The notes beneath the pieces are model-generated. The model saw only the letters and a list, made by a program, of their open reading frames with translations, did no database searches and was not told the origin of the DNA. A stretch of DNA of 64,000 nt from Hyphomonadaceae bacterium (lineage in GTDB: Bacteria; Pseudomonadota; Alphaproteobacteria; Caulobacterales; Aquidulcibacteraceae), in contig JAEUMP010000007.1 in the NCBI GenBank assembly GCA_016791445.1, positions 1-64,000 of the forward strand, given 5' to 3'. This document shows positions 8,034 through 28,630 of the stretch, piece by piece. Every line of letters starts with the position of its first letter. Positions within the stretch are counted from its first letter, which is position 1. A program made the translations under genes and the position numbers.

Positions 8034-8045
8034 CCCGCCTCCGCC

Positions 8046-8411
8046 TCAGGCCGCGAATTTTCGGACGGTTTCGAGGAAGACCTGGATCGAGATGGGCTTG
8101 GACAGGTACGCCTCGCAACCCTCGGCCCGGATACGCTGTTCGTCGCCGCGCATGGCGAAGGCCGTCACGGCGACGACCGGGATGGCCTTCAGATCGTCGT
8201 CGCCCTTCAGCTGGCGCGTGACGTCGAGGCCGGAAATGTCCGGGAGCTGGATGTCCATGATGATGAGATCGGGGCGGTGCTCGCGCACGAGGCCGAGCAC
8301 GCTCTTGCCATCCCGCGTCTTCACGGTCCTGTAGCCATAGGCTTCGAGGAGATCATTGAAGAGCTTCATGTTGAGCTCATTGTCTTCAACGATCATGACG
8401 GTCTTGGTCAT
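8046..8411 (-). CDS. divK: Single-domain response regulator DivK
   Basis: 121 residues consisting only of a receiver domain: acidic pocket VEDNELN, phospho-acceptor Asp53 in [12 protein letters not shown], conserved TAFAM and the KPIS lysine. The sequence and its place directly upstream of pleD identify the essential cell-cycle regulator DivK, which in Caulobacter modulates the CckA-CtrA pathway through DivL, PleC and DivJ. The intergenic region to the divergent ROK kinase holds an imperfect CtrA-like motif (TTAA-N7-TTGC at 8493-8507). Confidence 0.95.
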
Positions 8412-8535
8412 GGCTTGCGGACCGCTCGGCGCGACCCCTCCGTCGGACGCCGTGTGGCTGTCCCGCGCTGCGATGTGCTTACCGTGGAGCCCTTAATCAA
8501 GCCTTGCTTCGCCCCCCGATGCGTTAGGATTTGTC

Positions 8536-10841: not shown

Positions 10842-11801
10842 ATGGCGGAAAACTGGTCGGGCATGCGCGAACGCGGCTCCTACTGGGGCGTGCAGTTCTT
10901 CGCCGTCGCTTACCGGCTGCTCGGGCGCCGGGCCTGCCTCTTCTTCCTCGCCCCCGCCATCACCTTTTTCTATTTCACCGGCGCGCGTCAGCGGCGCGCC
11001 TCGCAGGACTATCTTCGACGGGTATGGCGCGCCGGCTACCTGCCGAAACGACCGGGGATCTGGGAGGGGCTGCAGCACTACATGGCTTTTGGCGAGTCGA
11101 TGATCGACAAGCTCGCCGCATGGATCGGCGACATCCGCCCTGAAGACGTCGATGGCGTGGATGAACAGAATTTCGCGGACGCCAAGGCCAACCCGCGCGG
11201 CGGCTTCGTCATCACCGCCCACATGGGCAATCCCGAGGTCATCCGGGCGGTAGCGACCGTCTCCCGGCGGTTCGTCGTCAATGTCTTGATGCACACCGCG
11301 CATGCCGAACAGTTCAACAGGCTGATCGATCGGGTGTCGCCGGACTCCTCGGTTCGCATGATCCAGGTGACCGCCATCGACATGGCCACCGCCATGCGCC
11401 TGTCCGAGGCAGTCGGGCGGGGCGAGTGGGTGATCATCACCGGAGACCGTCTGCCGGTGCACGGGGACGCCTCGCGGGCGGTATCGGCTGAATTGCTCGG
11501 CGCGCCTGCCCTCTTCCCGGAAGGTCCCTACTTTCTGGGGTCAGTCCTGAAGTGCCCGAGCTACATGCTCTTCTGTACCCGGCGGAAGGGCCGGTTCGGC
11601 ATTCGCTTCTCCCTGCTCGACGACCCCCTCCGATTGCCCCGGAAGGACCGCGGGGGCGCCCTGGGCGCCTACGCGCGACGCTTCGCTGCAGCACTGGAGG
11701 CCGAAATTGCCGCGACCCCCTTCCAATGGTTCAACTTCTACGATTTCTGGGGGGCCGCCGCATCGGATCAGTCCGAGGGGCCGGCGGACGAAAGTTCCTG
11801 A
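10842..11801 (+). CDS. HtrB/LpxL-like lysophospholipid acyltransferase of the aryl polyene cluster
   Basis: 319-residue membrane-associated acyltransferase. The HxxxxE catalytic motif appears as TAHMGNPE, with downstream GDR and FPEGPY motifs of the HtrB/LpxL superfamily, and an N-terminal hydrophobic anchor. In E. coli-type aryl polyene clusters such a domain is fused to a glycosyltransferase (ApeJ); here it stands alone, with a free-standing glycosyltransferase at 22963-23745. I infer that it acylates the aryl polyene lipid carrier. It is the first gene of the cluster, 113 bp after dinB. Confidence 0.75.
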   Translation: MAENWSGMRERGSYWGVQFFAVAYRLLGRRACLFFLAPAITFFYFTGARQRRASQDYLRRVWRAGYLPKRPGIWEGLQHYMAFGESMIDKLAAWIGDIRPEDVDGVDEQNFADAKANPRGGFVITAHMGNPEVIRAVATVSRRFVVNVLMHTAHAEQFNRLIDRVSPDSSVRMIQVTAIDMATAMRLSEAVGRGEWVIITGDRLPVHGDASRAVSAELLGAPALFPEGPYFLGSVLKCPSYMLFCTRRKGRFGIRFSLLDDPLRLPRKDRGGALGAYARRFAAALEAEIAATPFQWFNFYDFWGAAASDQSEGPADESS

Positions 11802-11832
11802 AGCCGGGCGCCGGCGCACATCGGGGGAAGGC

Positions 11833-13386
11833 TTGGACGGGTCCGGAGTAAATCGCGACATCGAGATCGGCGGTGAACCGCTGACCGTCGAAGCGGTCTG
11901 GCGGCTTGCGCACGGCCATGCGCCCACGCGCTTGTCCAAGGCGGCGCGGGCCCGCGTGGAGAAATCTGCGGGACACGTGGAAGCGCTCCTGAAGCGCGAC
12001 GGCGTCATCTATGGCGTGACCACGGGCTACGGCGACAGCTGCACCACGGAAATTCCGCCGGAGCTGGTGACGGAACTGCCGCTGCACCTCACCCGGTTCC
12101 ACGGCTGCGGCCTTGGCCGCCATCTGAGCCCGGAAGAAACGCGCGCCGTCATGGCTGTGCGCCTCGCGACGCTCGTGCACGGCTGGTCCGGGGTGACGTG
12201 GGACCTCGTGACGCTTCTGTCGGACATGCTGCGCCTCGACATCCTCCCGCTGATCCCGGCCGAGGGCTCGGTGGGCGCGAGCGGCGATCTGACGCCTCTG
12301 AGTTACATCGCCGGCGCACTCGCCGGTGAACGCGAAGTCCTCTTCGAAGGCGCGCGGATGACGTCGGCCCAGGCTTTCGCGAAGGCGGGTCTCAATCCGA
12401 TCACGCTGAAGCCGAAAGAAGCGCTTGCAGTGATGAACGGCACGTCGATCATGACGGGCCTCGCCGCACTTGCCTTCCGCCGCGCCGAAGCACTGGTCGC
12501 ACTGAGCGCGCGAATGACGTCGATGTCGTGTCTCGCGCTGCTCGGCAATCCGCGCCACTTCGATGAACGCCTGTTCGAGGCGAAACCGCATCCCGGCCAG
12601 ATGGCCGTCGCCGCGTCGATCCGCGAGGACCTCGCCAGCTTCCGCAGCGACCAACCGCTGTCGCGCCTGCAGGACCGCTACTCAATCCGCTGTGCGCCAC
12701 ACGTGATCGGCGTCCTCGCCGACATGCTGCCGACATGGCGCGCGATGATCGAAACCGAGATCAATAGCGCCAACGACAACCCGCTGTTCGATACCGAAAC
12801 CGGCGAACCTCTGCATGGAGGCCATTTCTATGGCGGCCACATATGCTTCGCGATGGATGGCCTGAAGACGCTCGTCGCCAACGTCGCCGACCTGTTGGAC
12901 CGCCAGTTCGCGCTGCTCGTGGACACGCGCTACAACAACGGTCTGCCGGCGAACCTTTCGGGCGCCACCGGCGCGCGCGCGTCCATCAATCACGGCCTGA
13001 AGGCGTTGCAGATCGGGGCCTCCGCGTGGACGGCCGAAGCGCTGAAGCTGACCATGCCGGCAAGCGTCTTTTCGCGTTCCACCGAATGTCACAACCAGGA
13101 CAAGGTCTCGATGGGCACGATCGCGGCGCGCGACGCGTTGCGCGTTCTCGAACTCACCGAGCAGGTGGCGGCGGCGCATCTCGTCTGCACCACCCAGGCT
13201 GTGCGGCTGCGTGTGGAACAAGGTTCGCTCACGCCGGCGCTGCTCGGCCCGCAACTCACCGCTCATCTCGCTGAAATGACCAGGCGCATCCCGAAGATCG
13301 TCGAGGATGCGCCGCTCGAGGGTACGCTCCGCGCGCTCTGCGCCGATCTCGCCGCGGGCGCACTTCAGGCGGACGGGCGTCCCTGA
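11833..13386 (+). CDS. Aromatic amino acid ammonia-lyase (HAL/TAL family)
   Basis: MIO-dependent ammonia-lyase, 517 residues from a TTG at 11833 that follows a GGGGGAAGG ribosome site; no ATG fits the family's start. The catalytic Tyr60 is in VIYGVTTGYG and the self-cyclising Ala-Ser-Gly triad at 149-151 in GSVGASGDLTPL. At the substrate-selectivity loop the pair is Phe89-His90, not the Ser-His of histidine lyases, the His-Leu of tyrosine lyases or the Phe-Leu of plant phenylalanine lyases. In a pigment cluster it should supply the aryl starter (cinnamate or 4-coumarate) to the AMP-ligase. The thioesterase start overlaps its stop by one base. Confidence 0.85.
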   Translation: MDGSGVNRDIEIGGEPLTVEAVWRLAHGHAPTRLSKAARARVEKSAGHVEALLKRDGVIYGVTTGYGDSCTTEIPPELVTELPLHLTRFHGCGLGRHLSPEETRAVMAVRLATLVHGWSGVTWDLVTLLSDMLRLDILPLIPAEGSVGASGDLTPLSYIAGALAGEREVLFEGARMTSAQAFAKAGLNPITLKPKEALAVMNGTSIMTGLAALAFRRAEALVALSARMTSMSCLALLGNPRHFDERLFEAKPHPGQMAVAASIREDLASFRSDQPLSRLQDRYSIRCAPHVIGVLADMLPTWRAMIETEINSANDNPLFDTETGEPLHGGHFYGGHICFAMDGLKTLVANVADLLDRQFALLVDTRYNNGLPANLSGATGARASINHGLKALQIGASAWTAEALKLTMPASVFSRSTECHNQDKVSMGTIAARDALRVLELTEQVAAAHLVCTTQAVRLRVEQGSLTPALLGPQLTAHLAEMTRRIPKIVEDAPLEGTLRALCADLAAGALQADGRP

Positions 13387-13805
13387 TGAAGGCGATCGTC
13401 ACGGCGACCGCCCGGACGTCGCCGCAGTTCTATGATGTCGATTCCATGCGCGTGGTCTGGCACGGCTATTACCCGCGCTTCTTTGAGCTCGGTCGCGTCG
13501 CGGTGATGGACCGCATCGGCTACGGCTATCAGGCGATGGTGGAATCGGGGTTCGCCTGGCCCATCGTGGACATGCAGATCAAGTACGCCCAGCCCATCAA
13601 GCTGGCGCAGGAGATCGAGATCGAGGCCGGGATCACCGAATGGGAAAACCGCCTCAAGATCGCCTTCCTCATCACAGATGCGGCGACAGGCCAGCGCCTG
13701 ACGCGCGGCTACGCCGTGCAGGTCGCGGTGGACATGCAAACGGAGCAAATGCTGTGGGAAACCCCGCCCGCCCTTCGCGAAAAGCTCGCGCCCTATCTGG
13801 TCTGA
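13386..13805 (+). CDS. Hotdog-fold acyl-CoA/ACP thioesterase (4-hydroxybenzoyl-CoA thioesterase type)
   Basis: 139 residues with the 4HBT signature around FYDVDSMRVVWHGYYPRFFE, including the catalytic Asp17. This is the thioesterase found in aryl polyene clusters (ApeK-like), where it probably edits or releases acyl groups from the ACPs. It is coupled to the ammonia-lyase by a one-base overlap, and the LolA-like gene begins inside it. Confidence 0.82.
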   Translation: MKAIVTATARTSPQFYDVDSMRVVWHGYYPRFFELGRVAVMDRIGYGYQAMVESGFAWPIVDMQIKYAQPIKLAQEIEIEAGITEWENRLKIAFLITDAATGQRLTRGYAVQVAVDMQTEQMLWETPPALREKLAPYLV

Positions 13806-14326
13806 TCGCACTCGCGATCGCATCCGTGGTCGCCATAGAAGCGGCATCCGCGCAATGCGTCGATCCGCTGCGTCTGGGCGTAGAACAGGGTGAAGCGCAG
13901 TTCCGCCAGACGCGGCGCATCAAGGGTGTCGCCAACCCGCTTGTCTCCACCGGTACAATGGCGATCCGCGGCGACGTGCTGACGTGGCGCGTGCGCGAGC
14001 CCGTGGACATCGTCACTACGATCACGCCGACAGGCGTCACCCAGTCCATAGACGGCGCGGCCCCGCAGCGCATGGCGAGCGGCGGCGCTTTCGAACAGTC
14101 CGGGCTTCTGCGTCTTGTCACCGGCGACCTCTCCCAGGTGGAACGCAATTACGTCGTTGCGCGCGCCCCTGCCGCCAATGGCGGGTGGCGACTGACCATG
14201 ACGCCGAAGGACGCACAATTGGCGCGGTTTCTGACGAATGTCGAAGTGCGCGGCTGTACGCGCGTGGACGGCGTGCTCGTTCGTCAGACGGACGGCGACA
14301 GCATCGAACTCGAGCGTCGTTCCTGA
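13754..14326 (+). CDS. LolA-like periplasmic carrier of the aryl polyene cluster
   Basis: 190 residues if translation starts at GTG 13754. This start is supported by CGGAG 8 bases upstream and because it gives a proper signal peptide: a basic n-region (RPSRKAR), a hydrophobic core and an ASA cleavage site before Gln-Cys. Starts further downstream remove the basic region. The mature part has the LolA-type pattern of a hydrophobic half-barrel (FRQTRRIKG, TGTMAIRGDVLTWRV, PQRMASGG). LolA-like proteins in these clusters probably carry the lipid-linked pigment to the outer membrane with the MMPL exporter. It overlaps the thioesterase gene by 52 bases. Confidence 0.78.
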   Translation: MGNPARPSRKARALSGLIALAIASVVAIEAASAQCVDPLRLGVEQGEAQFRQTRRIKGVANPLVSTGTMAIRGDVLTWRVREPVDIVTTITPTGVTQSIDGAAPQRMASGGAFEQSGLLRLVTGDLSQVERNYVVARAPAANGGWRLTMTPKDAQLARFLTNVEVRGCTRVDGVLVRQTDGDSIELERRS

Positions 14327-14361
14327 ACGGGCCGCCCCAAAGCAAGCCGGAACGGCGGCGC

Positions 14362-16605
14362 GTGTCGTTCTCGCAGATAGCGGCGACGCTGTGCGTCCTT
14401 TGGTGCCTCGCAGCAACCGGCATCGTCGCCTGGCGTCTCCAGCAAACGCCGGCGCCCATCGACACCGACATCCAGTCCATGCTGCCGGACAGCGACTCCG
14501 ATCCCGTGCTGCGCGCGGCGATGCTGCGCGCGGGCGAAGCGGCTTCCGGGCGCATCGCCCTCCTCGTCGCCGCGCCGGATCCCGCGAATGCCGAAGCAGC
14601 AGGCGCTGCGCTGCGCGGCGCGCTCGACAACGCCAAGGTATTCGTAGCTGACTCCGCCGACGCGGAATCTACCGGGCGATGGCTGTTTGCCAACCGAAAC
14701 GAACTGCTGTGCGAAGCGGACCCCGCGCAGTTCGACGACGCCGCCGCGGACCGGACAGCCCGCAGCGCGCTCGCCGCGCTTTACTCGCCGATCGCGCCGG
14801 TCAACGGGGACATGCTCGCCGCTGATCCATTCCTGCTGACGCTGCGCCTATCCCAATGTCTTTCGCCTGTCCCTGCGGGCGTTCCCGCTGACGCAACACT
14901 CATTTCCGGGAGGCTCACCGCTTCGGCGTTCCGCCTCGATACTCAGGCAGCGGTGACGACCATTGTCGAAGACTGGCGCGCGGCTTGGGAACCCAAAGGC
15001 GTAACGCTGCAACGCGCCGGCGCGATATTCCACGCGGCGGCGGCGGCGGACAGAGCCAAGACCGAAGTCGCGATTATAGGCGGCGTTGGGGGCATCGGCG
15101 TCATTCTGCTTTTCTGGCTGGCCTACCGTCGGTTCAAGGCGGTCCTGATCGCCGTTTCATGCGTCTATGTGGGGCTTGTGGGCGGGCTTGCCGCAGCTCT
15201 TCTCGTCTTTCCGTCCGTGCACATCATGGTCTTCGTGTTCGGCGCAACGCTGATCGGCGTCGTCTCTGATTACGCGGTGCACTTTCTTTCCACCGGACCC
15301 GCGACACGTTGGGCCGGCGCAGCGCATCGCCTGAAGCTCATCGGCCGTCCGATCACTGTCTCCATGATTACGACGACTCTCGCTTTCGCGGCCATGGCGC
15401 TGTTCCACGCGCCACTGTTCGCGCAAGTGGCGGTGTTCGCGACCGCCGGGCTCGTTACCGCCTGGGCATTCGTGCTCGCCGTCCTGCCGCGCATCGACAC
15501 GACTCCGCGCAACTCAGACGCACTGGCTGCACATTGGCGGCGCCTCGAGGACTTGCGGTCGCGCATCATCGTGTCCCCCGCCCTGAGCGGCGCCTGCGCC
15601 GTCGCCATTCTGGGCGCGGTTGCATGGGGCGGGCTTCATCTCACCTATCTCGACGATCCGCGCGCATTTCAGCCGAAAGAGGCCGCGCTGCTCGCCGAGG
15701 AACGCGTCATCCGCGCCGTCGGCGAGAGCACGTTCGCGCCCGCCTTCCTGCTTTCCGAAGGGAACTCCGCGGCGGAGGCGCGCGCTGTAGAGGAAGCCGC
15801 GCTCGCCCGCCTCGACCGCAGCGACATCCTCGCCACCAGCCGCTTCGATCCTTCGCCTGCGCGTCGTGCGGAGAATGCGGTGCGCATCGAGGCGCACCTT
15901 CTGGAACCTCGCCTCGCAGGACAGCTCGCGGCCGTGGGCCTGGATCCGTCGACCGTCGATGCGAGACGCTCCGACGCCGTCGAGCCGCCCCGCTGGCTAG
16001 AGGCGTGGCGCGGCGCGACGAGCGGCCGCCACTACCTCGTCGCGCCGATACTCGCCGACGGCGTTCAGGACGTCGCACTTCCGCCCGGCGCCCGCCTCGT
16101 CACGCCGGCGGATCACTATGCGACCACGTTCCGGGCGTACCGCGGCTTTGCGACCGGAGCGCTGCTCGCGGCCATGGCTGCAGCGGGACTAATCCTGCTC
16201 GCGGCCTACCGGCGTCTCGCCGCGCTCGCCATCCTCGTGGCGCCGCTTGCAGGGGTGACCGCAGGGCTGGCCATACCGGCGGCTTTCGGGGAACCCATCT
16301 CGTTCTTCTCGCTGGTCGCCGCCCTCGTCCTGCTGGGCGTGGGCGTCGACTATTCTGCGTTCCAGTGGGAGGCCGGTCGGGACGGCGACGGACGAGAGGA
16401 TCGCTGGACTGCCGTGGCCCTGCCCATCGACGCGGCGACCACGGCGCTCTCCATGGGGCTTCTCATGTTCAGCGCCACGCAACCACTGCGGAACTTCGGC
16501 CTGACCATAGCGATCGGTGTGGCGGCGGCGCTCATATTCTCGTATGTGCCAAGGGTTGTCGCGCGCAGGAGCGCACGCAAATCGATAGGGGAAGTGTCGT
16601 CATGA
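14362..16605 (+). CDS. MMPL/RND-family exporter of the aryl polyene cluster
   Basis: About 747 residues with the two-fold RND/MMPL plan: one N-terminal helix, a large periplasmic domain, five clustered helices (about 235-400), a second periplasmic domain and a final block of helices. Key patterns are GVVSDYAVHFL in the first half and GVGVDYSAFQW in the second, the paired Asp-Tyr motifs of MMPL transporters. It is expected to move the finished pigment lipid out of the inner membrane (ApeM-like). The start is uncertain; GTG 14362 was chosen because it places the first helix near the N-terminus. Its stop is followed 1 base after by the halogenase-like gene region. Confidence 0.83.
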   Translation: MSFSQIAATLCVLWCLAATGIVAWRLQQTPAPIDTDIQSMLPDSDSDPVLRAAMLRAGEAASGRIALLVAAPDPANAEAAGAALRGALDNAKVFVADSADAESTGRWLFANRNELLCEADPAQFDDAAADRTARSALAALYSPIAPVNGDMLAADPFLLTLRLSQCLSPVPAGVPADATLISGRLTASAFRLDTQAAVTTIVEDWRAAWEPKGVTLQRAGAIFHAAAAADRAKTEVAIIGGVGGIGVILLFWLAYRRFKAVLIAVSCVYVGLVGGLAAALLVFPSVHIMVFVFGATLIGVVSDYAVHFLSTGPATRWAGAAHRLKLIGRPITVSMITTTLAFAAMALFHAPLFAQVAVFATAGLVTAWAFVLAVLPRIDTTPRNSDALAAHWRRLEDLRSRIIVSPALSGACAVAILGAVAWGGLHLTYLDDPRAFQPKEAALLAEERVIRAVGESTFAPAFLLSEGNSAAEARAVEEAALARLDRSDILATSRFDPSPARRAENAVRIEAHLLEPRLAGQLAAVGLDPSTVDARRSDAVEPPRWLEAWRGATSGRHYLVAPILADGVQDVALPPGARLVTPADHYATTFRAYRGFATGALLAAMAAAGLILLAAYRRLAALAILVAPLAGVTAGLAIPAAFGEPISFFSLVAALVLLGVGVDYSAFQWEAGRDGDGREDRWTAVALPIDAATTALSMGLLMFSATQPLRNFGLTIAIGVAAALIFSYVPRVVARRSARKSIGEVSS

Positions 16606-17828
16606 CGACGAAGACGGATGTTGTTATCATCGGCGGCGGTCCCTCGGGCGCGGTCGCGGCCGCCATGCTCCGGAACAAGGGCCGCACCGTCGAAGTCATC
16701 GAGCGACAGCACTTCCCGCGCTTCTCCATCGGCGAAAGCCTCCTGCCGCAGAGCATGCACTACCTCGAAGAGGCGGGACTGCTGTCGCACGTCATGAATT
16801 GCGGCTTCCAGTTCAAGGACGGCGCCGCGTTCGCGTGGGGCAAGGACTACACCGACATCTACTTCCCCGACAAAATGACCGAAGGCTACGGCACGACCTT
16901 CCAGGTCAAACGCGACGAATTCGACATGGCGCTGATCACGGGCGCGCAGGAGAAAGGCGCCAACGTCACGTTCGGCGAGGAAGTCACCGCGTTCGAAAGC
17001 GACGAAAGCGGCGTGAAACTCACGGTGAAGAACGAAACTGGCGATGTCCGAACAGTCGAGGGCCGCTTCTGCCTCGATGGCTCGGGTTTCGGACGCGTGC
17101 TCCCGCGCCTGCTCAAGCTCGACAAGCCGTCCGACTTCCCGACCCGCCGGTCGGTGTTCTGTCACATCAAGGACAACATCAACGACCCCGACTTCGACCG
17201 GAACAAAATTCTCGTTTCCATCAATCCCGACGAACCGCAGATCTGGTACTGGCTCATCCCACTGCACAACGGCCTCTCCTCCGTCGGCGCAGTAGGGCCT
17301 GAAGCAGACATCACCGCCGCCGGCGACACCGATCAGGAGCGCCTCTGGAACCTGATCGCCCGCGCGGAGCGCATGTCCAAAGTACTCGTCAACGCCGAAC
17401 AGGTGAGACCTGCCGGAACGATCATCGGCTATGCGTGCAATGTGTCGTCGCTCGTCGGCCCGAGCTTTGCGCTGCTGGGCAATGCAGCGGAGTTTCTCGA
17501 TCCGGTATTTTCATCCGGCGTCACGATCGCGGTGAAATCCGCAAGCCTTGCAACTGATCTCGTCGACAAGCATCTCGATGGTCACGAGGTCGATTGGCAA
17601 AAGGACTTCGTTGAGGAGCTTCAGGTCGGCGTCGAGACATTCCGCGCGTGCGTCGAGGCGTGGTATTCCGGCTCCTTGCAACGGATCATCTTCAATCGTC
17701 CGCGCGAAATGAATGACGTCACCAAGATGCTGACCGCTGTTCTCGCCGGTTATGCGTGGGATCGTGACAATCCGCTCGTTCGCCAGCCGAAGCGTTTCCT
17801 GCGGGTGATCGACCAATTGTGCGAGTGA
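16602..17828 (+). CDS. FAD-dependent halogenase-like oxidoreductase
   Basis: 408 residues. The N-terminal dinucleotide fold reads GGGPSGAVAA; GESLLP follows as in tryptophan halogenases. Lys72 in FQFKDG sits where the catalytic Lys79 of PrnA lies, and W215-P220 (WYWLIP) fits WxWxIP, the motif that marks flavin-dependent halogenases against monooxygenases. A Gly-Asn-Ala-Ala second FAD motif and a hydrophobic segment DPVFSSGVTIA follow. Halogenated aryl polyenes are known (bromine in xanthomonadins, chlorine in some flexirubins), so chlorination or bromination of the aryl head is the natural inference. A non-halogenating member of the same family is the alternative. Confidence 0.8.
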   Translation: MTTKTDVVIIGGGPSGAVAAAMLRNKGRTVEVIERQHFPRFSIGESLLPQSMHYLEEAGLLSHVMNCGFQFKDGAAFAWGKDYTDIYFPDKMTEGYGTTFQVKRDEFDMALITGAQEKGANVTFGEEVTAFESDESGVKLTVKNETGDVRTVEGRFCLDGSGFGRVLPRLLKLDKPSDFPTRRSVFCHIKDNINDPDFDRNKILVSINPDEPQIWYWLIPLHNGLSSVGAVGPEADITAAGDTDQERLWNLIARAERMSKVLVNAEQVRPAGTIIGYACNVSSLVGPSFALLGNAAEFLDPVFSSGVTIAVKSASLATDLVDKHLDGHEVDWQKDFVEELQVGVETFRACVEAWYSGSLQRIIFNRPREMNDVTKMLTAVLAGYAWDRDNPLVRQPKRFLRVIDQLCE

Positions 17829-17833
17829 GCTGC

Positions 17834-18481
17834 ATGCGGGGGCGTGCAGCGATCCTTACGGCAATGATGACAGCCGGCTGTGCGACACCGGCTTTGCCGC
17901 GCGTGTCGTGGCCGACGACCTTGCCTTGGCCATCTGCGCGTCAGGAACCCCTCATACCGATTGCGCCGCTCGAGGCGTCGTCGACGCGCGACGTCAATTT
18001 CGGTCGTGATGTGAAACTCACACTGCCGAGCCGCCCCGGCTACCCGATCCCCTTCGAGGCGTCCCAGACCGTCGTCGCTCGTCACGAGAATCGCACCGTC
18101 GCCTTCCAGGCCGCGCTCTCACTCTCAGAAGCTGAAGCTCGCGTGACACTCGTCGCGCCCAGCGGACCGCGCATCCTGACCCTCTCGTGGACTGAAACCG
18201 GCGTCGCGGAGGATCGCACAATATTGGCGCCGGACCAGCTTCGCGGCGTCGACGTGCTGGCGGACATTTTCATGTGCCTGTGGCCAGCGGACACCGTGCG
18301 CGCCGCGCTCGCAGAACCCGCCACGCTTACATCCGCCGACGGCGTCCGCACGATCCGTTCCGCCGAGCGCACCGTGGTCGAAATCACCGAGGAGCCGGCT
18401 ACGGACGGCGCAACGCGCCATGTCCTGCGCAATCACGACCGGGGCTACTCACTCACCATCGTGACGCAGCGCGCCACATGA
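17834..18481 (+). CDS. Putative lipoprotein of the aryl polyene cluster (DUF3261-like)
   Basis: 215 residues from ATG 17834; an in-frame GTG at 17819, overlapping the halogenase stop, is an alternative. A short hydrophobic N-terminus ends in MTAGC, a weak lipobox with Cys at about residue 16, so lipid anchoring is likely but not certain. The rest is a beta-rich domain (VTLVAPSGPRILTLSW; GYSLTIVTQ). A protein of this sort accompanies LolA-like and MMPL genes in aryl polyene clusters, and I infer an outer-membrane role in pigment display. It overlaps the following ketosynthase by 4 bases. Confidence 0.65.
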   Translation: MRGRAAILTAMMTAGCATPALPRVSWPTTLPWPSARQEPLIPIAPLEASSTRDVNFGRDVKLTLPSRPGYPIPFEASQTVVARHENRTVAFQAALSLSEAEARVTLVAPSGPRILTLSWTETGVAEDRTILAPDQLRGVDVLADIFMCLWPADTVRAALAEPATLTSADGVRTIRSAERTVVEITEEPATDGATRHVLRNHDRGYSLTIVTQRAT

Positions 18482-19635
18482 GTGCTCGCGCCTACATACA
18501 AGACTTCTCCGTTGCATGCGCAGCAGGCGCTGATGCCGACGCCGTCGCGCGCGCCGTGTTCTCGGACGCGCCGCCAAAACTCCACACGACCGCTTCGCTG
18601 GTGGACGGACGGACGACCACAGTGGGACCGCTCGGATTCGAACCGGGATCACGCGAGGCCGCGCGCACCCGTTCCAATCGCCTTGTCGGGCACCTGCTCG
18701 ATCCCCTGCGGACGACGATTCAACAACGCCTCGCCACGCACAGCGCCGACCGCCTCGGTGTTGTCATCGGCACGTCCACGGCCGGCATGTTCGAGGGCGA
18801 AACCGCTTTGGCCGCGCGCAAGCGCGTTGGCGCCTGGGCCGCCGACTTTTCGTTTCGCGACCAGGAATTGAGCGATCCGGCGAACTTCGTCGCCGCCGCC
18901 GTCGGCGCGCGCGGGCCGGTATATGTGATTTCAACGGCGTGCACATCCGGGGGCAAGGCCATCGCCGCCGCCGCACGCCTCCTCGCAGCGCAGCTCTGCG
19001 ACACAGTGATATGCGGCGGTGTCGATACGCTGTGCGATCTTACGCTCAACGGCTTTTCGGCGCTGGAAAGCCTTTCCGAAACTGTTTGCAACCCCTTCAG
19101 CCGCAATCGTCGCGGCATCAACATCGGCGAGGGTGGCGCGCTCTATGTGCTGACGCGCGATGGCGGCCCCTTTGCGCTACTCGGCGCCGGCGAGAGTTCC
19201 GACGCCCACCACATCAGCGCACCCGAGCCCACAGGCGCCGGCGCAGAAGTAGCGATCCGACGGGCGCTTCTAAGAGCCGGCGATGCTGCCGCCGACATTG
19301 ACTTCATCCACCTCCACGGCACCGCCACGCGTCTCAACGATCAGGCGGAGTCCGCCGCGATCCATCGCGTGTTCGGCGATGACACGCCGGCGAGTTCCAC
19401 CAAGCCATTGACGGGTCACACGCTCGGCGCCGCCGGCGCCATCCAGACGGCGATCTGTCTTCTCGCCTTGCGCGACGGCGTTCTGCCGCCGCACCTCTGG
19501 GACGGCGAGCGGGACCCGGATCTTCCACACATTCGTCTCGCCGAAATCGCCGAGCGTGCTGACGTCCGACGCGTGCTCAGCGCAAACTACGCGTTCGGCG
19601 GCAACAACATCGCCCTGGTACTCGCCGCCGCATGA
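18478..19635 (+). CDS. Beta-ketoacyl-ACP synthase of the aryl polyene cluster (first)
   Basis: 385-residue type II ketosynthase with an intact Cys-His-His triad: Cys155 in ISTACTSGG, His280 in HLHGTATRLND and His314 in LTGHTLGAAGA. It probably performs chain extension of the polyene on ACP together with the second ketosynthase at 20834-22063; in characterised clusters two ketosynthases (ApeO/ApeR type) work with a chain-length-factor-like partner. ATG 18478 overlaps the previous stop (ATGA), and the dehydratase gene begins within its own stop region. Confidence 0.85.
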   Translation: MSARAYIQDFSVACAAGADADAVARAVFSDAPPKLHTTASLVDGRTTTVGPLGFEPGSREAARTRSNRLVGHLLDPLRTTIQQRLATHSADRLGVVIGTSTAGMFEGETALAARKRVGAWAADFSFRDQELSDPANFVAAAVGARGPVYVISTACTSGGKAIAAAARLLAAQLCDTVICGGVDTLCDLTLNGFSALESLSETVCNPFSRNRRGINIGEGGALYVLTRDGGPFALLGAGESSDAHHISAPEPTGAGAEVAIRRALLRAGDAAADIDFIHLHGTATRLNDQAESAAIHRVFGDDTPASSTKPLTGHTLGAAGAIQTAICLLALRDGVLPPHLWDGERDPDLPHIRLAEIAERADVRRVLSANYAFGGNNIALVLAAA

Positions 19636-20087
19636 ACGCCTCCTTCCCACCGATCCGCGAACTTGTACCGCATGAAGGAGCATTGCTGCTGATCGACGAG
19701 GTGCTGGCCTCGGACGACGACCACATCCGCGCCGTCGCCGTCGTGCGCAAGGATTGCCCCTTCTGGGTCCACGAGCGTGGCATTCCGGGCTACCTCGCCT
19801 TCGAATTCATGGCCCAGGCGATCAGCGCGCAGGACGGGCTGGAGCGCCGCAAGGCCGGGCAGGCGCCACAGCTCGGATTTCTGCTCGGCAGCCGGAAGTA
19901 CGCCGTCGCGACCGACTGGTTCGAGGACGGCGAGCGCCTGGAAATCACCGCGCGCGCAGTCCTGAACGAGGGGGAACTGCGGGCTTTCGCCTGCACAGTC
20001 TCGGGGCGCGGCAATCCGGGTTTGGCGACCGCCCTCGTGAACGTCTATCGTCCGGACGATCCGGCGGCGTTCGTCCGTGATTCCTGA
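19632..20087 (+). CDS. ApeP-like 3-hydroxyacyl-ACP dehydratase
   Basis: 151-residue single hotdog protein matching the aryl polyene dehydratase family: catalytic His14 in LVPHEGALLLID and Glu58 in LAFEFMAQAIS. It should remove water from 3-hydroxyacyl-ACP to create the conjugated double bonds. It overlaps the ketosynthase by 4 bases and precedes the ketoreductase by 12 bases, giving the usual KS-DH-KR-KS order of such clusters. Confidence 0.85.
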   Translation: MNASFPPIRELVPHEGALLLIDEVLASDDDHIRAVAVVRKDCPFWVHERGIPGYLAFEFMAQAISAQDGLERRKAGQAPQLGFLLGSRKYAVATDWFEDGERLEITARAVLNEGELRAFACTVSGRGNPGLATALVNVYRPDDPAAFVRDS

Positions 20088-20099
20088 GTTTTGAAGCGT

Positions 20100-20834
20100 A
20101 TGTCCGACCGCGCCCAACGTCCCGTCCTCGTCACCGGCGCCAGCAAGGGCATCGGACGGGCCGTCGCGCTGCGTCTTGGCCGCGAAGGCTACCCTGTCAC
20201 GGTCCATTACGGCGGCGACCGCGCGGGAGCCGAGACAACCCAACGCGAGATCGAAGCCGCCGGCGGCAAGGCCATGGTGATTGGCTTCGACACGACAGAC
20301 CGCGCCAAGACCGCCACCACGCTGGAAGCCCATCTCGCCGCTCACGGCCCCTTCTGGGGCGTCGTCCAGAACGCCGGCATCGCCCGAGACCGAGCGTTTC
20401 CGGCCATAGAGGGCGAGGACTGGGACATCGTCCTGCGCACCAATCTCGACGGCTTCTACAACGTACTCCACCCGCTGATGATACCGATGATCCGGCGGCG
20501 TGACGGCGGACGCGTCATCGCGATGTCGTCAGTTTCGGGCGTGATCGGCAATCGCGGCCAGGTGAACTACAGCGCCTCGAAGGCGGGCGTCATCGGAGCG
20601 GCAAAGGCGCTCGCAGTCGAGCTCGCGTCACGCAAGATCACGGTGAACTGCGTCGCGCCCGGCCTCATCGAAACGGCGATGACAGAGGACGTACGCGAGG
20701 AAGTGCTGGCGGCGATTCCGATGAAGCGCGTCGGTCAGGTCGACGAGGTCTCTGGTCTCGTTGCGTTTCTCATGTCTGACGAAGCCGCCTACATCACGCG
20801 TCAGGTCATCGGCGTGAACGGGGGGATTTGCTGA
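20100..20834 (+). CDS. FabG-like 3-ketoacyl-ACP reductase (ApeQ-like)
   Basis: Short-chain dehydrogenase, 244 residues from ATG 20100; a TTG at 20091 is also in frame. The NADPH motif TGASKGIG, NAG (91-93), and the Ser144-Tyr157-Lys161 catalytic set with Asn115 are all present, and the C-terminus VIGVNGGIC is typical of FabG. It reduces 3-ketoacyl-ACP in each polyene extension cycle. The next ketosynthase starts at its stop (TGATG). Confidence 0.88.
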   Translation: MSDRAQRPVLVTGASKGIGRAVALRLGREGYPVTVHYGGDRAGAETTQREIEAAGGKAMVIGFDTTDRAKTATTLEAHLAAHGPFWGVVQNAGIARDRAFPAIEGEDWDIVLRTNLDGFYNVLHPLMIPMIRRRDGGRVIAMSSVSGVIGNRGQVNYSASKAGVIGAAKALAVELASRKITVNCVAPGLIETAMTEDVREEVLAAIPMKRVGQVDEVSGLVAFLMSDEAAYITRQVIGVNGGIC

Positions 20835-22063
20835 TGGAGCGCCGCGTCGTCGTCACCGGCATGGCCGGCATCACATCGCTCGGCGCCGACTGGCAGAGCA
20901 TTTCCGCCGCCATGCACGAGGGCCGTACCGGCGTGAAGCGCATCGCGGAGTGGGAACGGCTGACCGATCTCTCCACCCGCCTCGGCGCACCGGCGGACTG
21001 GTTCACACACGAAGGCGTCTATCCGCGTCAGGCGGCGCGTTCTATGGGACGGGTCGCGGTGCTTTCGGTGAAGACCGCCGAACGCGCACTGGAACAAGCG
21101 GGCCTGCGTGACGATCCCGTGCTGAAAACCGGACGCACCGGCGTGGCGTGCGGCTCCTCATTCGGCTCCACGGCGCCGACGGTTGACTTCTTCCGCTTCC
21201 TCGAAACCGGCAAGGCAGGCCAGCTCAACGCGACGAGCTATATCCGCATGATGGGCCACACCGCGCCCGTAAACATAGCGGTGTTCTTTGGCCTCAAAGG
21301 GCGCGTGATCACGACGTCTTCCGCCTGCACTTCGGGATCGCAGGGCATCGGATCTGCGTTCGAGGCAATCCGCAACGGTCAGGCGGACGTGATGATCGCC
21401 GGCGGCGCGGAGGAGTTCTGCCCCACCATGACGATGGTGTTCGATCGTCTCTACGCCACCTCGACGCGCAATGACGACCCCAATGCCGCAAGCCGGCCGT
21501 TCGACAAGGATCGCGACGGCCTCGTCGTCGGCGAAGGCGCAGGCATTCTCATCCTCGAAGACCTCGAACACGCGCTGGCGCGCGGCGCGACGCCGCTGGC
21601 GGAAATCGTAGGCTATTCGACCAACTGCGATGGCGCGCACATCTCCCATCCGTCGCAGGAGACGCAGGTCGTCGTGATGCGCGAAGCGCTGGAGAGCGCG
21701 GGCATTCCCGCGAGCGAAATCAGCTTCGTTTCCGGCCACGGGACCTCGACCGAAGCGGGCGACATGGTTGAATCTAAGGCGACCGAAGAAGTCTACGGAA
21801 CCAATGTTCCCTTTCATACGCTCAAGGGCCATTTCGGCCACACACTGGGCGCGTGCGGCGCCATCGAGGCGTGGCTCGGCATCGAGATGATGCGCGAAAG
21901 CTGGCTGGCGCCGATCGCGAACTTCTCCAGTCCCGATCCGAAATGCGCGCCGCTTGACTTCATCGATGGCGCGGGCCGCCGTCTGGACGCCGCGTACTTC
22001 GCCTCCAACAACTTTGCCTTCGGCGGGATCAACACGTCCCTCATCTTCAAGCGCCTTTCGTGA
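20834..22063 (+). CDS. Beta-ketoacyl-ACP synthase of the aryl polyene cluster (second)
   Basis: 409-residue FabF-type ketosynthase with triad Cys165 (SSACTSGSQ), His302 (VSGHGTSTEAGD) and His336 (FGHTLGACGA). It is longer and closer to FabF than the first ketosynthase in this cluster, suggesting that one handles initiation or early cycles and the other later ones; which does which cannot be decided from sequence. Start ATG 20834 overlaps the ketoreductase stop. Confidence 0.87.
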   Translation: MERRVVVTGMAGITSLGADWQSISAAMHEGRTGVKRIAEWERLTDLSTRLGAPADWFTHEGVYPRQAARSMGRVAVLSVKTAERALEQAGLRDDPVLKTGRTGVACGSSFGSTAPTVDFFRFLETGKAGQLNATSYIRMMGHTAPVNIAVFFGLKGRVITTSSACTSGSQGIGSAFEAIRNGQADVMIAGGAEEFCPTMTMVFDRLYATSTRNDDPNAASRPFDKDRDGLVVGEGAGILILEDLEHALARGATPLAEIVGYSTNCDGAHISHPSQETQVVVMREALESAGIPASEISFVSGHGTSTEAGDMVESKATEEVYGTNVPFHTLKGHFGHTLGACGAIEAWLGIEMMRESWLAPIANFSSPDPKCAPLDFIDGAGRRLDAAYFASNNFAFGGINTSLIFKRLS

Positions 22064-22080
22064 CTAGCGGGAAAAACGCC

Positions 22081-22953
22081 ATGAAATCGAGCCTTCTGGC
22101 CTTTGCAGGCCTTGCCGCACTGTCGGCCCCCGCATTCGCGGAAGAAACGCAGCGTTCGTCCTATGCTCCCGAAGAGTCGCTGTGGGAACTGCGTCTTGGC
22201 GGAACAGGCCTCTGGGCGCCGGACTATCCGGGCGCCAATGAGGAAAGTTTCAACTGGGCGGCGGCGCCGATCTTCATCTACCGCGGAGACCGCATCCGGT
22301 TCGGCGAGTACGGCATGGCGCGCGCCATTGCGACCGAGACGAAGCGCTTCGAACTCGACCTCTCGGTCGACGCGGCCTACGCGGCGGAATCCGATGACAA
22401 CACCGCGCGTCGTGGCATGCCGGACATCGACTACCTGCTGCAGATCGGCCCGCAGGCGATCATCAATTTCAAGGACACCGGCTGGACCGCCAACGGCCGC
22501 GACGAGATCAAGCTGCGCATTCCTGTGCGCGGAGTTGCAGCAACCGACTTCCGGTCCATCGAACACGCTGGCTGGCTGGCGGAGCCAACACTTTCCTACC
22601 GTCACCGCTGGCCTGGTGAACGGCGCATGGGCGTGACCGCGAGCCTCTTTGCATCGTTCGCCGACGAGCAGTTGCAGGACTATTATTACGGCGTCGCGCC
22701 GCAGTTCGCTGCGCCAGGACGCCCGGCCTATGTCGCCGACGGCGGCTATCTTGGCGCGGGCATGAACATCTCCGCGACGCGCGAGATGCACGACAACTTC
22801 CAGATTTACCTGACATGGCAGGGCCGCAGCTTCGAGGGCGCGGCAAACCAGGACAGCCCGCTGCATCGCGCAGACTATACCTCGGCAGTCTCGGTCAGCT
22901 TCGTGTGGAAAATGCTCCGCAGCAAACGCCCGGCGCAGAACGACGACATGTAA
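22081..22953 (+). CDS. MipA/OmpV-family outer-membrane protein
   Basis: 290 residues with a clear signal peptide (MKSSLLAFAGLAALSAPAFA) and a beta-barrel-like mature part rich in alternating aromatic strands, beginning with LRLGGTGLWAPDYPGAN, the MipA/OmpV hallmark region, and ending in a C-terminal strand with aromatic residues. MipA links peptidoglycan synthases in E. coli and OmpV is an outer-membrane protein. Its presence right after the ketosynthase suggests a part in display or envelope adaptation for the pigment, but it could be a passenger. It converges with the glycosyltransferase gene, 9 bases apart. Confidence 0.75.
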   Translation: MKSSLLAFAGLAALSAPAFAEETQRSSYAPEESLWELRLGGTGLWAPDYPGANEESFNWAAAPIFIYRGDRIRFGEYGMARAIATETKRFELDLSVDAAYAAESDDNTARRGMPDIDYLLQIGPQAIINFKDTGWTANGRDEIKLRIPVRGVAATDFRSIEHAGWLAEPTLSYRHRWPGERRMGVTASLFASFADEQLQDYYYGVAPQFAAPGRPAYVADGGYLGAGMNISATREMHDNFQIYLTWQGRSFEGAANQDSPLHRADYTSAVSVSFVWKMLRSKRPAQNDDM

Positions 22954-24424: not shown

Positions 24425-25108
24425 ATGACTGACGCGATCTCGTTCGCGACACAGGGCGATATGAATATCCTCGCAATTGCGGATTTCGCGGCCATCGTCG
24501 TCGCGCCCGGCATGCCGGAAACGGTGCACGGTCGCGCGCGCGGCATGGATGCCATCCCAATGGCCTTGCGCCGGCGCATGAGCCGGTTCGAGACAGGCGC
24601 TGTCCGCTGCGCGCTGGGATTGATCGAGCCCGGCGCTGACGAAACGCTGATCCTTGCCTCACGCTATGGCGGCATGACGACGGCGTTCGGGCTGCTGGAA
24701 AGTCTCGCCGCACGCGAGATCCTCTCCCCCTCGGACTTTTCCATTTCCGTGCACAATGCAGCCCCTGGGCTCGCCAGCCAGATTGCGCGCAACAGGGCGG
24801 GACACACGGCCGTCGCCGCGGACACACACACCTTCCACGCGGCGCTGACCGAGGCGGCAGCACGGCTGTGCGACGGCGAACGCGCCGTCACCGTGATTTT
24901 CGCCGAACAACCCCTGCCGGGCGTCTATGCGGAAGTGGAGGAGCCGGACGATCCGCGGGAAGTCTGGCTTGCGGTACAGTTGCACGCCAATGGTGAGAAT
25001 GCAGACAATGCGCACGCTCTCGGCCCGGGGCGGCGCGGCGCCTGCGCCCTCGTCGAGGCGCTCGAACGCGGCGAGCGCCGTATCTGCTGGCGCACGGGCG
25101 CGCCGTGA
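24425..25108 (+). CDS. Ketosynthase-like N-terminal-domain protein (chain-length-factor-like, ApeC type)
   Basis: 227 residues, about half a ketosynthase. It has the SVHNAAPGLASQIA motif of the stand-alone beta-ketoacyl-synthase N-terminal family (PF13723 type), in which the thiol nucleophile is absent. In characterised aryl polyene systems such proteins pair with an intact ketosynthase. An internal ATG at 24461 could be the start instead of 24425. Its stop overlaps the GTG start of the next acyltransferase gene. Confidence 0.78.
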   Translation: MTDAISFATQGDMNILAIADFAAIVVAPGMPETVHGRARGMDAIPMALRRRMSRFETGAVRCALGLIEPGADETLILASRYGGMTTAFGLLESLAAREILSPSDFSISVHNAAPGLASQIARNRAGHTAVAADTHTFHAALTEAAARLCDGERAVTVIFAEQPLPGVYAEVEEPDDPREVWLAVQLHANGENADNAHALGPGRRGACALVEALERGERRICWRTGAP

Positions 25109-25875
25109 TCGCCGCACTGGACCGGCTCTGGCGTCTCATCGCCACCGGCATTTCCTTCGCACTCTTCGGTCTCGGCGGCGTGCTGATGGCGCTCGTCGTC
25201 TATCCGCTGATGACTCTGGTCATCCGGAACCGCAGCCGGCGTGAGGAACTGGCGCAGTGGAGCGTTCACCTCCTGTGGGCGTTCTTCGTTTGGATCATGA
25301 AGACGCTCGGCGTCCTGACCTATGAATGCCGCGGGAAGGATATCCTTCGTGCGGACACGGGCACGATCGTCGTCGCCAACCATCCCTCCTTGATCGACGT
25401 CGTCTTCCTGATGTCCTTCATGCGCCGCTCACAGGCGGTGGTGAAGGAGGGCGTCTGGAAGAACCCTTTCATGGCCGGCGTCGTCCGCGCGACGAACTAC
25501 ATCCCGAACCTCGGGGACCCTGAACGGCTGGTGGCTGATTGCGCCAACGTGCTGCGCGCCGGGAAGAACTTGTGCATCTTTCCGGAGGGCTCGCGCACGG
25601 TTCCCGGCCAACCGCGCCGGTTCCAGCGGGGCTTCGCCTACGCCGCCATCGCCGCCAACGCCCCGATCCGGATCTGCACCATCGTCTGCGACCCGCCGAC
25701 CCTGCTCAAGGGCGAGCCCTGGCACCGGATTCCCACACGCCGCCCGCATTGGCTCATCACGGTCCATGAGCGCATTGAGCCGCCCCCCGGGACTGGATAT
25801 GACAAGGGCCCCATGGGGGTCCGGAAGCTGACCGCACAGGTGGAAGCCCGGATTGAGGAGCTGTTGCAGGCATGA
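25105..25875 (+). CDS. PlsC-like 1-acylglycerol-3-phosphate acyltransferase (ApeD-like)
   Basis: 256 residues, GTG start overlapping the preceding stop. The acyltransferase motifs NHPSLID (HxxxxD), FPEGSRT and an N-terminal pair of membrane helices are visible. It is distinct from the HtrB-like enzyme at 10842 and belongs to the PlsC branch, as expected for the second acyltransferase of an aryl polyene cluster, probably building the lipid anchor. It overlaps the first ACP gene by 4 bases. Confidence 0.83.
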   Translation: MIAALDRLWRLIATGISFALFGLGGVLMALVVYPLMTLVIRNRSRREELAQWSVHLLWAFFVWIMKTLGVLTYECRGKDILRADTGTIVVANHPSLIDVVFLMSFMRRSQAVVKEGVWKNPFMAGVVRATNYIPNLGDPERLVADCANVLRAGKNLCIFPEGSRTVPGQPRRFQRGFAYAAIAANAPIRICTIVCDPPTLLKGEPWHRIPTRRPHWLITVHERIEPPPGTGYDKGPMGVRKLTAQVEARIEELLQA

Positions 25876-26129
25876 GCGACATCGAAGCGGACCTGAAGAC
25901 CATGATCGTCGAGATCCTGGGTCTTGAAGACGTCCGGCCGGAGGAAATCGGCTCCGAGGAGAACCTTTTCGACGACAGTGGCCTTGCCCTCGATTCCATC
26001 GACGCGCTGGAGCTCGGGGTGTCCATCCAGAAGAAGTACGGCATCAAGATCGACCCGCAGGACAAGAGCATCAATGAGCATTTCAAGAGCGTCCGCTCCC
26101 TCGCCGATTTCATCCGCAAGGGCAGCTGA
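25872..26129 (+). CDS. Acyl carrier protein (first of a pair)
   Basis: 85-residue acidic ACP with the phosphopantetheine attachment Ser in GLALDSIDALEL. It is followed by a second, different ACP, the ApeE/ApeF arrangement of aryl polyene clusters in which one carries starter/extender units. No phosphopantetheinyl transferase gene is in the window, so activation depends on one encoded elsewhere. Confidence 0.88.
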   Translation: MSDIEADLKTMIVEILGLEDVRPEEIGSEENLFDDSGLALDSIDALELGVSIQKKYGIKIDPQDKSINEHFKSVRSLADFIRKGS

Positions 26130-26163
26130 CGGCGCGCGAGACGAAGAAATGCCGGGGGCGGAA

Positions 26164-26412
26164 ATGACGAAGGACGAGATATATCGCGAGATCGTTGAGT
26201 ACCTCACCGGGACCTTCGAGGTGCCCGCGGCGAAGATAAAGCCTGAGGCGCTGCTGATGGATGATCTCGACCTGGATTCCATCGACGCCGTCGATCTCAT
26301 GGTGAAGCTGCAGGAAACGACCGGGCGCAAGGTGTCGGCCGACCAGTTCGAGAACATTCGCACCGTCGACGATCTCGTCGTGCTCGTGAACACGCTTCAG
26401 TCGGCGCGATGA
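26164..26412 (+). CDS. Acyl carrier protein (second of a pair)
   Basis: 82 residues from ATG 26164, preferred over ATG 26149 because GGGGGCGGAA lies just before it. Attachment Ser is in LDLDSIDAVDL. The sequence differs clearly from the first ACP, so the two are likely specialised. It overlaps the membrane protein gene by 4 bases. Confidence 0.88.
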   Translation: MTKDEIYREIVEYLTGTFEVPAAKIKPEALLMDDLDLDSIDAVDLMVKLQETTGRKVSADQFENIRTVDDLVVLVNTLQSAR

Positions 26413-26981
26413 AACTGTCGCCCTCAGCGCTGGCGCTGGCGGCGTTCTCGATCGCCTATCCCATACTCGCGATGATCGCGATCCGCACGATCGGACCGTG
26501 GCCGGTCGTCGGGCTGCTATGCGCGATGCTCGTCCTGCGCAGCGTCGTGGATGTTTTCGGCGCGGCGTCGTCGCCGTTGACGCTGGCATTGCTGGCGGTG
26601 GCGGTCGCTGTTGGCGGGTTTTCCGCGTTCGATCCGGAGCGCGCGGTGCGGCTCTATCCGGTGTTCATGAACGCGGCGATGCTCACGGCTTTCGCGCTGA
26701 CGCTGGCGCGCCCGCCGTCGATGATCGAACGCTTCGCGCGGGTCACCGAGCCGGACCTGCCGCCAAGCGGCGTGCGCTATACACGCCACGTCACAACCGC
26801 GTGGTGTCTCTTCTTCATCGCCAACGGCTCCATCGCGCTGTGGACGGCGCTGTTCGCCGACCTTCAAGTATGGGCGCTCTACAACGGTCTCATTGCCTAT
26901 CTCGCGATGGGCGCGCTCTTTGCGATCGAATTTGTCATCCGCGGCCGTGTGAAGGCGCGCGATGCGCTGGAACACTCATGA
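26409..26981 (+). CDS. Polytopic membrane protein of the aryl polyene cluster (COG4648, ApeG-like)
   Basis: 190 residues with about five hydrophobic helices and a conserved TRHVTTAWCLFFIANGSIA segment. Proteins of this type sit between the ACPs and the AMP-ligase in aryl polyene clusters; biochemical role unknown, possibly membrane assembly of the synthase. Start and stop both overlap neighbours by 4 bases. Confidence 0.78.
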   Translation: MKLSPSALALAAFSIAYPILAMIAIRTIGPWPVVGLLCAMLVLRSVVDVFGAASSPLTLALLAVAVAVGGFSAFDPERAVRLYPVFMNAAMLTAFALTLARPPSMIERFARVTEPDLPPSGVRYTRHVTTAWCLFFIANGSIALWTALFADLQVWALYNGLIAYLAMGALFAIEFVIRGRVKARDALEHS

Positions 26982-28630
26982 AGGGCGTCGTCGCAAGCCT
27001 GACATCCGCGCGTGCCGACGCAGTATGCTTCACCAGCGGCGATGCGTCGATCACCGCCGGCATGATCCGTGCGAGCGCGGCGCGCGCCATTGCTGCGCTT
27101 GAGCCCTCGACGGCGCCGCTCTACGTCCACACGCAATCCGCCGCCCTGTTCTGCGCCGCTCTACTTGCTGCAGCCGCGACAGGTCGACGTCTGAGCGTTC
27201 TGCCGCAGGCGCAGCCCGGGTATCTCGCCGACATCGCCGCCCCGCGCGAAGCGTTGCTCATCGACCACGGTGAGACGCCGACGTTCGCCCTGCACGACGG
27301 TGACTCACGGATCGACGCCGACGACGCCGTAGACCTCGATTTCTTCACCTCGGGATCGACCGGTGCGCCGAAGATCGTGCCGAAGAAGCTCGCCCATCTC
27401 GAACGCGAAATCGCCTTCTGGGAATCCGAGATCGGAGGCCGCTGCGACGCGATGGAAGCCACCGTTTCGCACCAGCATGTGTACGGCATGCTCTTCCGCG
27501 TCGTTTGGCCTGTCATGGGTGCATGGCGATCACGGGACATCGCTGCACTGGCGTGGGAGCAGCTGGAAGGCGCACTAGGCCCCCGCGTCGCACTCGCATC
27601 GAGCCCCGCCCACCTCTCGCGACTCCCACCTGCCTTCGCGCTGAAAGGCGGCCCACCCGCCTTCATCTTCAGCTCCGGCCAGATGCTGGCGTGGCCGGCA
27701 GCACAGGCCACAGCCGCGCTGTTTGGCGCCGCGCCCACAGAAATTCTCGGCAGTACGGAGACGGGCGGAGTCGCGTGGCGCTTGCGTACGGCTGAGGATT
27801 CACTGTGGACTCCGCTCAACGACGTTTCGGTCAGCACCGACGAGGATGGCGCGCTGCACGTCTCGTCACCGTATTTCGATGCGTCTGCGCCGATGGCGAC
27901 CGGTGACCGCATCCAACGCGATGCAGCGGGCGGCTTTCGATTGCTGGGCCGCGTCGACCGCATCGCCAAGATCGACGGCAAGCGCGTGTCGTTGTCTCGG
28001 GTGGAGGAGGCGCTGCGCGCATCGCCGCTTCTTGCGGACGCGGCGACGCTCGCATTGCCGAGCCGACGCAATGCGCTCGGCGCGGTCGCGACCCTGACGG
28101 AGGCCGGTCGCGCGCTACTGGCTGACGAGGGCGCATTCCGCTTCACCCGGCGCTTGAGAACCGCACTCTCCTACACGCTTGAGCCTGCAGAGCGACCGAA
28201 GCACTGGCGCTTCGTCGGCGCAATTCCGGTGAACAGCCAAGGCAAGCGGCAACTCACGACCCTCGCACGCCTGTTCGAGATCGACAGCGTGATGAGCACG
28301 CTGAAGGCGGCGCCGCTGCATCTGGACGCCGTATCGGCGCGCCTCGCCTTCACGCTTACGGCGGACATGCCCTGGTTTCAGGGCCACTTCCGCGACGCGC
28401 CCGTGATGCCGGGCGTCGCGCAGGTCCATCTGGCGGCGCGCCTCGCGGAAGAGTTATGGGGCTTCGAACCATCCAGCCACATGCTCACACAAGTGAAGTT
28501 CAAGCGGCTCCTGAAGCCCGATCGACCGGTCCTCCTGGACCTCGACATCGACGCCGCAACAGGCGTGATCGCGTTCGCTTTCACCTGCCGCGACGAGCGC
28601 GTTGCGGAAGGCAGGATCGGAGGCGGCTGA
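26978..28630 (+). CDS. Fused aryl AMP-ligase and hotdog dehydratase (ApeH-ApeI-like)
   Basis: 550 residues. Residues 1-440 form an ANL-type AMP-ligase: P-loop FFTSGSTGAPK (122-132), GSTETGG (258-264), TGDR with Asp310, and catalytic Lys423 in NSQGKR. It should load the aryl acid onto an ACP. Residues 445-550 are a FabA/FabZ-like hotdog dehydratase with the motif WFQGHFRDAPVMPGV and catalytic His470. In E. coli-type clusters these are two genes, ApeH and ApeI; here there is one uninterrupted frame. It starts in the stop of the membrane protein gene and is the last gene of the pigment operon. Confidence 0.85.
   Translation: MKGVVASLTSARADAVCFTSGDASITAGMIRASAARAIAALEPSTAPLYVHTQSAALFCAALLAAAATGRRLSVLPQAQPGYLADIAAPREALLIDHGETPTFALHDGDSRIDADDAVDLDFFTSGSTGAPKIVPKKLAHLEREIAFWESEIGGRCDAMEATVSHQHVYGMLFRVVWPVMGAWRSRDIAALAWEQLEGALGPRVALASSPAHLSRLPPAFALKGGPPAFIFSSGQMLAWPAAQATAALFGAAPTEILGSTETGGVAWRLRTAEDSLWTPLNDVSVSTDEDGALHVSSPYFDASAPMATGDRIQRDAAGGFRLLGRVDRIAKIDGKRVSLSRVEEALRASPLLADAATLALPSRRNALGAVATLTEAGRALLADEGAFRFTRRLRTALSYTLEPAERPKHWRFVGAIPVNSQGKRQLTTLARLFEIDSVMSTLKAAPLHLDAVSARLAFTLTADMPWFQGHFRDAPVMPGVAQVHLAARLAEELWGFEPSSHMLTQVKFKRLLKPDRPVLLDLDIDAATGVIAFAFTCRDERVAEGRIGGG

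Follow-up and report, generated by a model that had tools for sequence, protein, structure and literature searches.

The window (the whole 64,000-nucleotide stretch of DNA analysed here) contains an aryl polyene (ape) gene cluster for a yellow pigment, in which one gene encodes a flavoprotein, and the locus raises the question of whether this flavoprotein halogenates the pigment, as was suggested by a preliminary description that had recognized a flavin halogenase signature inside the pigment operon. Aryl polyenes have been described as the products of the most abundant family of bacterial biosynthetic gene clusters (PMC8253772). The genes that identify an ape cluster are present in order (Table 1): ketosynthase/chain-length factor, ketoreductase, dehydratase, two acyl carrier proteins (ACPs), AMP-ligase, and the LolA/RND/DUF3261 transport set. 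A second block of genes (24425-28630) comprises the chain-length factor, the acyltransferase, the two ACPs, the membrane protein and the AMP-ligase/ApeI fusion. The AMP-ligase (apeH-like) and the ApeI-like dehydratase, which are encoded by separate genes in E. coli, are joined here in a single protein of 550 amino acids.

Table 1. Genes of the aryl polyene cluster in the window.
Feature	Coordinates	Strand	Evidence or remark
Lysophospholipid/lipid A-type acyltransferase (apeJ-like part)	10842..11801	+	syntenic in relatives
MIO-type aromatic amino acid ammonia-lyase	11830..13386	+	BagA/FevW 404, HutH 387 and FlxA 321 bits, all under the equivalog cut-offs
Acyl-CoA/ACP thioesterase (apeK-like)	13386..13805	+	
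LolA-like carrier (apeL-like)	13802..14326	+	PF19574
MMPL/RND transporter (apeM-like)	14314..16605	+	start codon approximate
FAD-dependent halogenase-like protein, 408 aa	16602..17828	+	motifs, Pfam profile, fold, HMMER alignments
DUF3261 LolB-like protein (apeN-like)	17819..18481	+	PF11659, 82 bits
Ketosynthase (apeO-like)	18478..19635	+	PRK09185, 444 bits, over cut-off
Dehydratase (apeP-like)	19632..20087	+	
Ketoreductase FabG2 (apeQ-like)	20091..20834	+	
Ketosynthase (apeR-like)	20831..22063	+	PRK09116, 615 bits, over cut-off
MipA/OmpV outer-membrane protein	22060..22953	+	
Chain-length factor (apeC-like)	24425..25108	+	
Acyltransferase (apeD-like)	25105..25875	+	
Two acyl carrier proteins (apeE-, apeF-like)	25872..26412	+	
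Membrane protein (apeG-like)	26409..26981	+	
Fused AMP-ligase + ApeI-like dehydratase (apeH-apeI-like)	26978..28630	+	

The core gene order apeK-L-M-N-O-P-Q-R of the E. coli CFT073 apeA-R cluster (PMC8253772 Table 1; CFT073 record) is also that of the window cluster, but the E. coli cluster contains neither a flavoprotein gene nor an ammonia-lyase gene, and it has a methyltransferase, ApeB. The halogenase-like gene is thus an insertion between apeM and apeN of an otherwise E. coli-like operon, and its absence from the E. coli cluster indicates that it is an accessory gene outside the core machinery of assembly and export. No flavin reductase is encoded within the ape cluster; the host genome has one, of the PF01613 type, at another location.

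The open reading frame is intact. Its ATG overlaps the stop codon of the upstream RND/MMPL gene (ATGA), and its own stop codon shares nucleotides with the start of the DUF3261 gene. The Pfam match of the 408-amino-acid product is Trp_halogenase (E 1.5e-22; 80.6 bits, cut-off 21), and the protein contains the motifs GGGPSG (residues 11-16), WYWLIP (215-220), GN (293-294) and FLDPVFSSG (298-306) in addition to Lys72. As the preliminary description had it, Lys72 lies within FQFKDG and, with WYWLIP, coincides with the catalytic lysine and the WxWxIP motif of flavin-dependent halogenases: in HMMER alignments, both features align with their counterparts in six solved halogenases (CmlS, ChlB4, Mpy16, PltA, CndH and FasV (8ZOP)). 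We take the position of Lys72 to be that of K79 of PrnA and K83 of BrvH. The activity of the halogenase BrvH was abolished by the substitution K83A (PMC5945002).

Conservation of these motifs was examined across 44 sequences of the family, PDB entry 3NIX included. Lys72, W215, W217, I219 and P220 are identical in all 44, in 14 of 14 xanthomonadin-type sequences, and in 7 of 7 sequences that are known halogenases or a near homologue of CmlS. The FxxPxxSxG loop and G11, G13 and G16 of the GxGxxG motif (GGGPSG; 44/44 in the family) are likewise invariant in all three groups. Within the family, 65 of 408 positions are invariant. Shuffling of the protein produced a WxWxIP motif in 45 of 200,000 trials; given this rarity, the conservation and the Pfam score, the signature is not attributable to chance. 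The catalytic glutamate found at the E346 position of PrnA is absent, the loop being DPVFSSG with Phe303, but PltA, ChlB4, Mpy16, CmlS and CndH also have Phe at this position, so from what is known of the family the glutamate is dispensable in this branch; it is a property of the tryptophan-halogenase branch only.

The family has a distinctive FAD site: at the GD motif, which precedes the halide-binding loop, residue 294 is Asn in 44/44 sequences, whereas all 21 of the halogenase-type sequences have Asp. Because most of the flavoprotein superfamily at large also has this Asp, GN is a mark of a variant and GD does not define halogenases. Further residues found only in this clade are Arg182, Arg200, Lys202, Glu297, Trp354, Tyr384 and Trp386, and together with the change from GD to GN they indicate that the chemistry of the family may differ. 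One such chemistry would be ring hydroxylation on a halogenase scaffold, giving a 3,4-dihydroxyaryl head group that could then be methylated wherever an ApeB-type methyltransferase is present. This would suit the clade-specific GN, the pairing of the gene in a Vibrio-like genus with a methyltransferase that has an O-methyltransferase domain, and the precedent of QhpG, a relative with the halogenase fold that is a dihydroxylase (PMC7876137). However, the QhpG monooxygenases (of which one sequence, L126, was left out of the motif comparison) and the LodB-like maturases, which are the nearest relatives of known non-halogenase function, lack both the catalytic Lys and the IP of WxWxIP that every family member retains. 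The Lys and WxWxIP pair therefore separates halogenases from their hydroxylating cousins, and WxWxIP has been proposed to block monooxygenase function (PMC5945002); a hydroxylase is accordingly considered unlikely.

Structure prediction, which the preliminary description had recommended, yielded a halogenase fold. The AF2 model (pLDDT 95.1) has as its best PDB match 3NIX (TM 0.95), and the next matches, all of them halogenases, are PltA, ChlB4, FasV, Mpy16, RadH and Bmp2 (TM 0.76-0.88). The fold, the Lys, WxWxIP and a DPxFSSG-type loop are common to the window protein and to the carrier-protein-type halogenases PltA, ChlB4, Mpy16 and Bmp2 as well as FasV, RadH, CmlS and CndH, but these eight are only 24-28% identical to it, have GD rather than GN, and belong to a separate clade. 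In contrast, 3NIX, a structural genomics target from the bacteroidote Cytophaga hutchinsonii, shares with the window protein the Lys, WxWxIP and the GN signature, is 41% identical over the fold alignment, and falls into one clade with the family (support 100/100). Its deposition simply as "flavoprotein/dehydrogenase", the clade-only residue signature and the tight linkage to the transport genes apeM and apeN would also be consistent with some other flavin-dependent redox reaction (oxidation, reduction or isomerization) while the polyene is assembled or exported, Lys and WxWxIP having been retained for other reasons. Yet E. coli needs no such gene to produce and export its aryl polyene, and we know of no protein with all the motifs of flavin-dependent halogenases that has another function, so this reading appears fairly improbable.

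Placement of the protein among geranylgeranyl reductases (GGRs), the alternative named in the preliminary description, was not obtained. GGRs form a group of their own (100/99), have neither the Lys nor WxWxIP nor the FSSG loop, and give a poorer fit to the fold (TM 0.67). A GGR-type FAD reductase would be in keeping with a score of 116 bits against the NCBIfam GG-red-SF model (geranylgeranyl reductase family, TIGR02032), but this is below both the cut-off of 158.8 bits and the score obtained with the CmlS model (163 bits), and the genome has a genuine GGR-family protein (256 bits) at another locus. The best trees place the family among halogenases; in approximately unbiased (AU) tests, alternative positions beside the GGRs (p 0.53), the xanthomonadin type (p 0.33) or QhpG/LodB (p 0.47) were not rejected. 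Motifs, fold and profile score nevertheless speak against a GGR, an identity that was rejected and is regarded as very improbable.

The preliminary description had likened the expected product to xanthomonadins; identity of the protein with the xanthomonadin-type halogenase (an enzyme named in the literature; PMC3691225) was also rejected. Distant homologues with about 30% identity form a second clade (L025-L035, L093-L097), assigned to the xanthomonadin type by gene context rather than by a Xanthomonas sequence. These proteins have halogenase motifs like those of the window protein and most are encoded beside other aryl polyene core genes, but they have GD where the window family has GN, and their clusters are of a different type. 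No genome with genes of both clades was seen in samples of 385 and 398 genomes. A homologue on a Variovorax plasmid (L114) proved to be of the xanthomonadin type, and within 14 kb of it no ape gene was detected. Two loci (L096 and L098) each encode two distant halogenase-like proteins near aryl polyene-like genes, one of them of a deeply separate type.

Among 398 Pseudomonadota genomes, 47 encode orthologues of the window protein with scores of at least 282 bits (most above 350), and the next score is 166 bits; the family is thus sharply bounded. Judged by its sequence, the window protein belongs to a halogenase-like family that is widespread in aryl polyene clusters and has a FAD-site signature of its own. 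The preliminary description had also drawn attention to the alphaproteobacterial host, but such a host is not exceptional: of 385 genomes of the window's own class, 23 have matches at any level, the window's included, with 8 others carrying the family (at least 366 bits) and 14 having only distant homologues (at most 159 bits), most of which belong to the xanthomonadin-type clade. Two relatives, one from the same family and one from the same order, come closest to the window protein, with 64-65% identity.

Thirty loci were examined, and in 28 of them the gene is inside an ape cluster, most often between apeM and apeN in the order thioesterase, LolA, RND, halogenase-like gene, DUF3261, ketosynthase, dehydratase, ketoreductase, ketosynthase. 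An ApeB-type methyltransferase is absent from 40 of the 47 carriers, and no overall correlation was found between the family gene and this methyltransferase (7/47 versus 7/24; Fisher p 0.21). In the Vibrio-like genus (L101 (G642), 7862-10202; Vibrionaceae-like at best, with 16S 92.5% identical to Vibrio sp.), the flavoprotein gene and an adjacent, co-directional gene for an ApeB-type methyltransferase make up a two-gene unit that is divergent from the ape cluster and not at the usual apeM-apeN site. This pairing and the absence of ApeB from most carriers suggest tailoring of the head group.

Several other loci depart from the common arrangement. One family member (L080 (G730), 8969-10198) has only a ketoreductase-like ape match within about 9 kb and is possibly an orphan copy. 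The flavoprotein gene is apparently broken, with a split frame or three alignment pieces, in L100 (G620; 8868-10096) and in Neisseria gonorrhoeae plasmid-collection matches H20 and H21, which hints that ape clusters can lose the gene. A 38% identical relative (H23) on a plasmid of Aureispira anguillae (Bacteroidota; L113, 10821-12074) is near a MMPL/acyltransferase/methyltransferase fusion, a second FAD oxidoreductase and an AMP-ligase; this locus may be what is left of a flexirubin-like system.

On balance, the protein is probably a ring halogenase whose target is the 4-hydroxyaryl head group of the aryl polyene. The starter of the cluster is probably a 4-hydroxyaryl acid derived from the MIO-type ammonia-lyase, which is predicted, with tyrosine as its presumed substrate, to supply 4-hydroxycinnamate. 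A 4-hydroxyaryl phenol is activated for electrophilic halogenation ortho to the hydroxyl group. From the observed fold, motifs, invariance and operon context we infer an activity for which halide, substrate, position and timing would be as follows. The enzyme would be a two-component flavin-dependent halogenase, receiving FADH2 from a flavin reductase encoded elsewhere; FADH2 and O2 would form a flavin hydroperoxide, halide at the DPVFSSG loop would be oxidized to HOX, and HOX would pass to Lys72, which would transfer X+ to the ring position ortho to the phenolic hydroxyl group. The target would be the 4-hydroxyaryl starter or the finished polyene, probably carried by an ACP, and the expected product a 3-chloro- or 3-bromo-4-hydroxyphenyl polyene.

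Counting against the halogenase reading are GN in place of GD, the AU results (p 0.33-0.53) and the lack of a flavin reductase within the cluster. No halogenated pigment from any member of the window-family clade was found in the literature surveyed. In a paper of 2021, xanthomonadin is the only pigment mentioned as a halogenated aryl polyene, even though expression of the V. fischeri cluster had been achieved (PMC8253772). Azoarcus arcuflavin (C41H52O4) is halogen-free despite an annotated halogenase, possibly of another clade, in its cluster (PMC3949708), so an annotated halogenase in a cluster can accompany a halogen-free pigment.

Tentatively, and as a somewhat less than even prospect, the family may constitute a separate class of flavin halogenases with a FAD site altered from GD to GN, present in about one in eight of the sampled Pseudomonadota species and halogenating aryl polyenes presumed to be halogen-free, with 3NIX as its first structure. 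If head-group halogenation is true, a large share of outer-membrane aryl polyene pigments would carry chlorine or bromine, the halogen should alter their light absorption and redox behaviour, and a hitherto unexplained crystal structure, 3NIX, would gain a function. Since the family is widespread in ape clusters, halogenated pigments may, if the activity predicted from sequence holds, be more frequent than is presently expected.
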